From positions 1 to 36,614 of the forward strand of contig DATKAB010000190.1 in NCBI GenBank assembly GCA_035498555.1: a stretch of 36,614 nucleotides of DNA, written 5' to 3'. Of this stretch, positions 2,015 through 15,518 are shown piece by piece (position 1 is the first letter of the stretch; each line of letters begins with the position of its first letter). The notes beneath the pieces were generated by a model. That model was not told the DNA's origin and searched no databases. It saw only the letters and a program-made list of their open reading frames with translations. Position numbers and translations under genes: made by a program. Source of the DNA: Candidatus Sulfotelmatobacter sp. GTDB lineage: Bacteria; Eisenbacteria; RBG-16-71-46.

Positions 2015-3073
2015 GTGTCACTGTTCTCGAAGAACCAATGGCAACCGTGGGCTCGATCGTGGGGCGTGAGCCACTACCCACAGCGTGGAGCGTTTGGTCG
2101 CAACGAGCAGATCGCGGGCCTCCGCAATGGTTACCTGCTTCAGGTGAGCTGGGGCGGCGACAAGAACGCGACGCTGATCGTGCGACTCCGCTTCCCGATG
2201 GGCGCCAGCCTCGAAGGCATTCGCGCGGCACTCGCCGCCGACCCGTCGCTGGACGCGCTCCCCGGCAAGGGCAAGGCGCGCGCGAAGACGGTGATCGAGA
2301 TCGGCCCCGAGAAGATGGTCCGGCTCGGGTTCATGCCCGAGTTCATCCTGCGCGACGGAAGCCTGCTGTGGAGCCGCCGCTTCGCCTGGTCCACGCCGAA
2401 GGCCGAGCAGCTCAAGGGATGGGTGGACACATTGATGATGGCGCTGGCCAGGGCGGCGCCGGCGTTCGACGGCAAGTGCGAGCAGTGCCACACCACCGCC
2501 GTCCGCCAGTTCGTGTTCGTGGACGGCGTACCGAAGCTGCTGTGCGGGACCTGCCAGGAGCGCCTGCGCGTCGAAGGGCAGATGGCCGAGCGCAACTACG
2601 ACATGCTCGAGGCGCGGTATCTCAACGGCGCGCTGCTCGGGCTCGGCATGGCGTTGCTCGGCGCCGCCGGCTGGGCGGCGCTGGCCGCCGGAACCGGCTG
2701 GATCCTGGTGGCGGCTGGGCTCGGAATCGGCTGGCTGGTGGCGGTGGCCTATCGCCGCGGCGCGGGCCGAGTGGATCGCACCGGGCAGCTGATCGGCGCG
2801 GTGCTGACGCTCGGCTCGGTGGTGTTCGGCCAGGTGCTGTTCTACGCCTGGAGCGTCATGCGCGTGCGGCCCGACGTGGGCTTCAGGATCGGCGCCGGCT
2901 GGCTGGTTTACATGCGGCTGTGGGCGACCAGTCCAGGCACCGACATCATCGCGGTGGTGTTCGGGCTGGTGGGCGCGCTGGCCGCGTTCGGCATGCTGCG
3001 GCGCAAGGTCCAGGGCGCGGTGATTCGGACGGCCGACGAGGATCCGCGGGTTACGGCGAGGCGCGCGGCGTAG
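2015..3073 (+). CDS. Zinc-ribbon integral membrane protein of unknown function
   Basis: Not recognised as a named family. The open frame runs upstream to 1673, but that extension is low-complexity. GTG at 2015 is preceded by GGGAGGA (2001-2007) with a 7-nt spacer, so it is taken as the start, giving 352 residues. Residues 1-150 are predicted soluble, with alternating charged and hydrophobic stretches. Two CxxC pairs (Cys155/158 and Cys177/180) form a likely zinc ribbon, followed by a charged linker. About four hydrophobic helices occupy roughly 205-335, and a short basic tail ends the protein. The layout suggests a cytoplasmic metal-binding domain tethered to the membrane. It lies alone between the amidohydrolase and the inverted repeat at 3086-3229, so context gives no function. 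The reading frame is confident; the role is unknown. Confidence 0.8.
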   Translation: MSLFSKNQWQPWARSWGVSHYPQRGAFGRNEQIAGLRNGYLLQVSWGGDKNATLIVRLRFPMGASLEGIRAALAADPSLDALPGKGKARAKTVIEIGPEKMVRLGFMPEFILRDGSLLWSRRFAWSTPKAEQLKGWVDTLMMALARAAPAFDGKCEQCHTTAVRQFVFVDGVPKLLCGTCQERLRVEGQMAERNYDMLEARYLNGALLGLGMALLGAAGWAALAAGTGWILVAAGLGIGWLVAVAYRRGAGRVDRTGQLIGAVLTLGSVVFGQVLFYAWSVMRVRPDVGFRIGAGWLVYMRLWATSPGTDIIAVVFGLVGALAAFGMLRRKVQGAVIRTADEDPRVTARRAA

Positions 3074-3085
3074 AGCAAAGGTCGA

Positions 3086-3229
3086 GGCGAGGCTGGTGGG
3101 GGTTGAAGCGGGCTGCTCGCTGCGCCGCCGACTTCCTGTCGGCGGCTTGCTCTCGGGTCCGCGCCCGGCATCCTGCCTCCACAGCCGCGGGCCCGAGAGC
3201 AGCCCGCTTCAACCCCCACCAGCCTCTCC
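3086..3229. repeat. Large structured inverted repeat (30-bp perfect outer stem with two inner hairpins)
   Basis: Bases 3089-3118 are perfectly complementary to 3197-3226; two more pairs extend the stem to 3086/3229 across one mismatch. Inside lie two further hairpins. Hairpin A has GCCGCCGAC at 3124-3132 against GTCGGCGGC at 3138-3146, with loop TTCCT. Hairpin B has 3152-3163 against 3186-3197, 12 pairs with one T-G wobble; it can extend to 15 pairs (3149-3163 with 3186-3200) at the expense of the outer stem. The folded form is a three-way junction with alternative pairings. It sits 12 bp after one gene and just before the predicted -35 of the ECF sigma gene. It may be a REP/BIME- or MITE-like repeat, a structured RNA, or an oversized terminator. 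There is no T-run, so a simple intrinsic terminator is unlikely. Confidence 0.85.
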
Positions 3230-3239
3230 CCATCGCCGC

Positions 3240-3268
3240 GTGATACTCCTCGACTCCCCCCGTATCAT
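3240..3268 (+). promoter_or_regulatory. Candidate promoter of the ECF sigma operon, possibly leaderless
   Basis: The -10 hexamer TATCAT (3263-3268) lies 17 bp after GTGATA (3240-3245), which matches four of six bases of TTGACA. The ATG at 3277 follows after only 8 nt and has no Shine-Dalgarno sequence, so transcription would start at or next to the start codon. The -35 begins 11 bp after the inverted repeat ends. Whether the promoter is read by the housekeeping sigma or by the ECF factor itself cannot be told. Confidence 0.45.
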
Positions 3269-3276
3269 TCCCGGCA

Positions 3277-3822
3277 ATGGCGAACGAGACCATGGCGGTC
3301 AGCCGCTGGTGGACCTGGGTCGTTCCGGCCCGTGAAGAAGACTGGGATGCGCTGTATGCGGAGCAGCTGCCGCGCGTCTACAACTTCTTCCGCTACCGGG
3401 TCGGCCACGGGCCCGAGGCCGAAGACCTGACCTCGGTCACCTTCGAGAAGGCCTGGCGCGCGCGGCACCGGTACCGCCGCGACCTTTCGGCCTTCACCAC
3501 CTGGCTCTTCACCATCGCGCGCAACGTGGCGGTGGACCACTTCCGCCAGCGCCGGGCGCACGCCCCGATCGAGGCGGCGGCCGATCTGCCGGGCGGCCTG
3601 ACTCCCGAGGAGCTGGCGGAGCGGCGCTCCGACGTCGAGCGCCTCTCACGCATGCTCGAAGCCCTGCCCGACCGCGAGCGGGAGCTGCTGTCCTTGAAAT
3701 ACGGTGCCGGTCTCACCAATCGGGCGATCGCTCGACTGACCGGCCTCAGCGAATCCAACGTCGGCACCATCGTCCACCGCACCATCGCTGGACTGCGCGC
3801 CGACTGGCCCGAAGGAGTCTGA
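3277..3822 (+). CDS. ECF-type RNA polymerase sigma factor
   Basis: A 181-residue sigma-70-family factor of ECF size with only regions 2 and 4. Region 2 covers about 22-95: LYAEQLPRVYNFFRYRV, then the core-binding/-10 recognition segment ending in FTIARNVAVDHFRQRR. After an acidic linker, region 4 covers about 125-176 (LPDRERELLSLKYGAGL and the helix-turn-helix AIARLTGLSESNVGTIVHR). ATG at 3277 is chosen because a -10-like TATCAT lies 8 nt upstream; ATG at 3292 is an alternative. The stop is 2 nt from the next ATG, so sigma factor and putative anti-sigma factor are translationally linked. It probably directs transcription of its own operon with the ABC exporter, and perhaps a stress regulon. 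The ECF subgroup was not assigned. Confidence 0.93.
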   Translation: MANETMAVSRWWTWVVPAREEDWDALYAEQLPRVYNFFRYRVGHGPEAEDLTSVTFEKAWRARHRYRRDLSAFTTWLFTIARNVAVDHFRQRRAHAPIEAAADLPGGLTPEELAERRSDVERLSRMLEALPDRERELLSLKYGAGLTNRAIARLTGLSESNVGTIVHRTIAGLRADWPEGV

Positions 3823-15483: not shown

Positions 15484-15518
15484 GGCGCTCCGCCCCGGCC
15501 CGGCCGGGACGGAGCGCC
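15484..15518 (-). terminator. Probable intrinsic terminator after surA
   Basis: GGCGCTCCG (15484-15492) pairs with CGGAGCGCC (15510-15518). An inner CCCGG/CCGGG stem (15494-15498 with 15504-15508) gives a 14-pair hairpin with one mismatch. It begins 21 bp past the surA stop. On the minus strand it is followed by a short T-rich stretch (CATTTCATTG) rather than a full T-run, so termination strength is uncertain. Confidence 0.6.

Follow-up and report, generated by a model that had tools for sequence, protein, structure and literature searches.

The closest described systems are the REP, BIME and REPIN repeats with their RAYT (TnpA-REP) transposases. These are dispersed extragenic palindromes, often located downstream of genes, and their strand-polar hairpins, inverted doublets and compensatory changes, together with the co-occurrence of a Y1 transposase, usually as a single copy, are all shared by the element described herein. 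REP transposases are Y1 (HUH) enzymes that read single-stranded DNA hairpins in a strand-specific manner (PMC8266576, PMC3116915). Whilst a REP or REPIN is a stem–loop of 20–40 bp with GTAG at the foot of the stem, the present element is a three-way junction of ~130–160 bp without GTAG; it differs further in its two direct GGA-loop hairpins, its long copy-specific arms, a copy number that is low for REPs (≤30 found per genome) and in copies that are not seen flanking the Y1 gene. Relatives of the REP transposases that lack GTAG repeats and occur with other dispersed palindromes are on record (PMC3733652). The TIR repeats of TIRtrons and TIRYTs treated there are likewise dispersed inverted-repeat families without GTAG, with a RAYT-like link in some genomes, but they flank the transposase gene, and the GGA core is not among the features described in the section consulted.

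Since two defining REP features (GTAG and a short, simple palindrome) are missing and two (inverted doublets and a Y1 gene) are present, the element is not filed as a REP; it is best called REP-like in behaviour, a variant of the dispersed palindromic repeats. A first-pass annotation of this locus had suggested a mobile palindromic repeat of the REP/BIME type, which is supported in kind (a dispersed family, inverted doublets, placement 3′ of genes), but without GTAG and with no target duplication evident by eye. The integron attC site (RYYYAAC...GTTRRRY) was also considered, and set aside by eye, as the arms are perfect and lack the expected asymmetry.

Structure of the element in the window

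The window, i.e. the whole 36.6 kb stretch of DNA analysed, contains only one ungapped inverted repeat with a score above 15, and this is the element itself (3086–3229, minus strand), one copy of the dispersed three-way-junction repeat. An inverted-repeat search of the window returned perfect, mutually complementary 30 bp arms at 3089–3118 and 3197–3226 around two hairpins, bearing out the outer stem proposed in the annotation, and these reach 3086–3128 and 3187–3229 when mismatches are allowed. The RNA minimum free energy of the element is −123.6 kcal/mol, compared with a mean of −71.8 for shuffled sequence (z −13.1), with 0 of 200 shuffles being as stable. The sequence of the left arm is unique in the genome, in that a search for the arm motif with 0–3 mismatches returned this locus only, with chance-level matches elsewhere.

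Hairpin A occupies 3124–3132/3138–3146, with the loop TTCCT, and hairpin B lies at approximately 3148–3163/3186–3201. On the minus strand, which carries the GGA loops, the first hairpin (3148–3201) has the core TGGAG-GCAGGATGC-CGGGC and fits the family unit CGGAGNCAGGANGNCGGAG except at two positions, and the second (GCCGCCGACAGGAAGTCGGCGGC, 3124–3146) retains an AGGAA loop, with base pairs replacing the internal GGA/GGA loop. Competition between hairpin B and the outer stem, as anticipated in the annotation, is real and involves 3197–3201: TGCTC is present twice, such that this part of the right arm pairs either with 3114–3118 or with 3148–3152. The duplicated TGCTC is a branch-migrating junction. 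The idea that hairpin A is a 29 bp insertion with a TGCTC duplication was dropped, because the two-hairpin core is shared by the family. As previously noted from the sequence, there is no terminator T-run on either side (3227–3245 and the opposite side), and the element ends (at 3226–3229) 11 nt before a sigma operon promoter.

A dispersed family beyond DNA identity

DNA searches of the own genome, 59 relatives, the class, plasmids and phages returned no further copy, which on its own would have suggested a unique terminator; this was set aside, as covariance models reveal a family. The element is single by DNA identity and a family member by covariance model because the arms and much of the core diverge, whilst the structure persists. 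The annotation had equated a single copy without covariation with a simple terminator; the copy is indeed single by DNA identity, but the family found with covariance models displays strong covariation.

Long inverted repeats of any sequence were sampled in ~1.49 Mb of the own genome (window included) and in 0.78 Mb of a relative, G001. Several elements of 120–164 bp occur in these stretches, with shuffled sequence yielding none at score 17. Six of them, including the window copy, possess two hairpins each, with GGA in both terminal loops and always on one strand, thereby orienting the window element on the minus strand. Their hairpin pairs are GACAGGAAGTC/GCAGGATGC, GCCAGGACGGC/GCAGGATGC, CCAGGGATGG/GCCCGGATGGC, ACAGGGATGT/ACCGGATGGA, GACAGGACGTC/GCCCGGATGGC and CCATGGATGG/GGCAGGAAGCC, and the fold of one of the six includes an extra small hairpin. 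Only ~4 % of perfect hairpins generally carry GGA, and GGA-loop enrichment is absent among all hairpins, hence such loops are a specific mark of the element. When weak inverted repeats were screened automatically for enclosed GGA hairpin pairs, the outcome was no better than with shuffled sequence, and the GGA-pair signal is confined to long-arm elements.

A covariance model constructed from the window copy alone (R1) matched 11 copies in G007, a member of the same taxonomic family, and one in G008. The G007 copies share a core of ~100 nt, with outer arms that are different and mostly complementary. A two-hairpin pattern derived from these copies and searched in GTDB r220 genomes identified copies in the Candidatus Eisenbacteria MAGs WS_2, WS_3 and NC_groundwater_1813, in three Planctomycetes MAGs and in one uncultured Clostridia assembly; matches in Sorangium, Okeania, Streptomyces, a deltaproteobacterium and Moraxellaceae were rejected as GGA-rich repeats without arms. 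G007 is WS_3 and G008 is WS_2 (identical sequences), and model matches at equal coordinates suggest that G013 is NC_groundwater_1813; the organism of the window is hence probably a member of Candidatus Eisenbacteria.

A second model (R2), built from 16 copies of relatives and including no sequence of the window's genome, recovers the window element at 3092–3226, on the minus strand only, with 49.2 bits and an E-value of 3.7 × 10−10 (genome). The reciprocal matches of R1 and R2 therefore establish the family relation both ways. With R2, 138 copies were found in 18 of 20 genomes of the same taxonomic family, up to 30 per genome, alongside one marginal match among 27 genomes of the same class outside it. 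These counts are lower bounds, as the strict filters used let a 37.6-bit copy at L145 escape; at normal filter settings, four clear copies (window, L062, L145 and L146) and some weak ones are recovered from the sampled part of the own genome. Rfam 15 contains no match to the element above the gathering score, and a scan of IMG/VR revealed no copy. Being absent from Rfam and from the literature found, this is apparently an undescribed and uncatalogued structured repeat, common to several phyla.

In each family member, a long, copy-specific outer stem surrounds two hairpins that point the same way; both end in an AGGA(N) loop, and as a rule each also contains a symmetric internal loop, GGA/GGA. 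The conserved core is a pair of hairpin units of the form C[GGA]GNC-AGGA(N)-GNC[GGA]G, both on the same strand. In the 16-copy consensus there are two units CGGAGNCAGGANGNCGGAG, in which the AGGA(N) loop is closed by GNC/GNC and followed by the GGA/GGA internal loop, and AGYGAG leads into the second hairpin. The search pattern itself included the second unit and some of the first, so their invariance partly reflects how the copies were selected; the R1 matches and the copies of the window's genome are free of this bias. Paired changes on both sides are found in 25 of 36 pairs of the 16-copy alignment (MAFFT, structure-blind), with a covariation score of 0.353, compared with 0.149 when shuffled and ≤0.168 when slid. 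Alongside this strong covariation, a structured non-coding RNA, another candidate named in the annotation, may be considered.

Arms match their own partner (mostly 12–29) and not the arms of other copies (mean 7.5), such that near-identical cores lie at unrelated sites with copy-specific arms. The Planctomycetes arms resemble one another, and arms are therefore not always site-derived. There are no conserved ends between copies, complementarity being restricted to arms within a copy; GTAG is absent from the conserved columns of the 16-member alignment, and visual inspection of the sequences on either side of the window copy and its relatives showed no target duplication. That a rigid GGA-loop core is combined with perfect arms peculiar to each copy raises the question of whether hairpins are targeted or arms are made.

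Genomic placement and rival readings

Where the surroundings could be read, approximately half of the copies have the 3′ end of a gene no more than 50 nt away, as judged by gene calls from a GC-frame heuristic. Several are wedged between convergent genes with 1–10 nt to spare, one Planctomycetes copy is directly behind a tRNA gene and three are located between apparently divergent genes. Most copies are singlets; the eight close pairs are all in −/+ order (seven in Eisenbacteria, one in a planctomycete). In five of six tandem settings, the preceding gene and the GGA strand are antisense to each other, a sample too small to build on, and as a sign of the transcribed strand the GT and AC mismatches in the arms (21 vs 11) are not significant.

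Hairpins behind genes are a wider feature of this lineage. Perfect hairpins of at least 12 bp start within 60 nt of a stop codon in 16 of 21 and 25 of 34 cases, with 4 % expected, and mostly without a T-run, which suggests T-less terminators or 3′ barriers; across stretches of the own genome and G001, perfect hairpins of 12–18 bp are ~20-fold enriched just behind stop codons. Within the window, the gene upstream of the element (2015–3073, plus strand, start uncertain) has no Pfam family, and its stop codon lies 16 nt before the outer arm. Relatives at an E-value of 1 × 10−20 are present in 4 of 19 other genomes of the taxonomic family.

Downstream, and outside the element, are the ECF-type promoter TGATAC (3241–3246) ... 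CGTA (3261–3264) of the sigma operon and the ECF sigma factor gene (3277–3822, with Sigma70_r2 and Sigma70_r4_2), both on the plus strand. The promoter is genuine, as TGAT[AG]-N15-CGTA occurs at identical spacing before 11 of 11 sigma orthologues examined; TGATAC-N14-CGTA (window 3241–3264) is autoregulatory-looking, and is kept before the sigma gene in 11 genomes. The annotation had envisaged the element as a switchable control of this stress operon, acting through alternative pairing, and in keeping with this it stands 11 nt before the promoter and has 5 bp at the junction with two possible partners. However, ten sigma-operon orthologues outside the own genome all keep the same promoter and have no element, which is therefore not standard equipment of the operon, and a dedicated switch is not supported. 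The pairing ambiguity, moreover, is a 5 bp branch migration within a −124 kcal/mol fold, and we find this reading barely credible. An ordinary, large bidirectional 3′-end hairpin under selection, serving as a T-less terminator or RNA-decay barrier and having no mobile origin, would suit the placement directly behind genes, the enrichment of native T-less hairpins there and the G004 orthologue of the upstream gene, which likewise ends in a strong hairpin. Like an intrinsic terminator, the element places a strong GC-rich hairpin immediately after a stop codon, but it has no T-run, and it differs in its three-way junction and in a core common to several loci. It is the sharing of this ~100 nt GGA core between unrelated loci and phyla that weakens the 3′-end explanation, which also fails to account for the −/+ doublets and for copies between divergent genes; as a full account it is improbable.

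A classical MITE of a DDE insertion sequence would fit the size and the terminal inverted repeats, and another repeat kind of the own genome (GGTCGTGCTCCGAAGATTGC arms) does look MITE-like, with a possible 9 bp duplication at one copy. In the present family, on the other hand, the ends differ between copies, the conserved part is internal and no target duplication is evident by eye, making a MITE very unlikely. Greater weight, albeit still limited, can be given to a CsrA-binding RNA module, in which transcripts of the GGA strand would act as scattered CsrA sponges or binding sites, with one CsrA dimer bound per pair of AGGA loops. Every copy has two CsrB-type AGGA(N) hairpin loops, and these CAGGA(N)G loops equal the CsrB repeat CAGGA(U/A/C)G, whilst ACAGGAUGU fits the SELEX consensus RUACARGGAUGU (PMC7652899). 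Two csrA genes are present in the own genome, and csrA is found in 18 of the 20 genomes of the taxonomic family. CsrB/RsmZ-type sponge RNAs similarly repeat CAGGA(N)G in the hairpin loops of one strand, but the element has two loops per copy, is dispersed, has no known transcript and does not match the distribution of csrA: the MAGs G010 (96 % complete) and G005 (82 % complete) contain copies with no csrA match, and csrA is frequent in families that lack the element. The antisense orientation of the GGA strand and the mere 21 to 11 excess of GT over AC mismatches, both noted above, also count against such a module, which we hold to be unlikely; the CsrB-like loops mean that some RNA role may nevertheless apply. 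If CsrA does bind the element, it would represent a mobile CsrA sponge.

A Y1 transposase as candidate partner

The element is probably a REP/REPIN-like, non-autonomous mobile repeat, of which the window contains one diverged minus-strand copy. We infer this from the near-identical cores at unrelated sites, the patchy distribution, the inverted doublets and the 3′ placement; no empty site was observed. G000 has a Y1_Tnp gene (C24:23562–23900), as do 19 of 20 genomes of the taxonomic family, normally as a single copy (in G001 at C25:57962–58300), and 3 of 27 others. Accordance is not complete, as G008 has 11 copies and no Y1 match, whereas G003 and G012 have a Y1 gene and no element matches; no model match lies near the Y1 gene, the nearest being at 5.3 kb in G001. 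This Y1 gene, putatively RAYT-type, tracks the family, as a correlation within one clade that phylogeny may account for. Nevertheless, this distribution, together with the occurrence of csrA in genomes that have the element and in genomes that lack it, points to a Y1 transposase rather than CsrA as the putative partner of the element.

In the proposed mechanism, a Y1 (HUH) transposase would recognise the GGA-loop hairpins on one strand of the element, folded as single-stranded DNA, and would move it without duplicating the target. The element would tend to land in T-less hairpins at gene ends, or its arms would merge with them, and either course would explain the unique, perfect arms. At the window locus, the main effect of the element would then be to give the upstream gene a strong 3′ structure, with its position before the sigma promoter being incidental. 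More tentatively, there could be a class of mobile element, spread over several phyla, whose conserved, strand-polar GGA-loop three-way junction a Y1 transposase recognises in single-stranded form; insertion would be specific to the loops of hairpins at gene ends, the copies gaining long, perfect, site-specific arms and a terminator becoming a larger structure; we regard this as possible, though doubtful. Should a RAYT indeed move the element, the substrate range of these enzymes would widen beyond GTAG stem–loops.

Other structured sequences were encountered in the same genomes. The MITE-like repeat kind of the own genome is 119–142 bp long, is bounded by the terminal inverted repeats GGTYGTGCTCCGAAGATTGC, lacks GGA loops and is located at L037 12289–12428 (the copy with the possible 9 bp target duplication), L141 3758–3897, L072 2340–2481, L109 16375–16516, L052 17078–17215, L039 14267–14385 and L144 638–756. 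In G001, a palindromic repeat with arms AGTGACGGATGCCCG is found at L127 9623–9801, L124 19–136 and L115 19–79; two of these are at contig ends, and it is therefore probably repeated in that genome. A 6S RNA gene of the own genome lies at L062 2001–2191, and the window itself harbours a near-perfect 17 bp inverted repeat with a 1 nt gap at 15484–15518 (GGCGCTCCGCCCCGGCC/GGCCGGGACGGAGCGCC).
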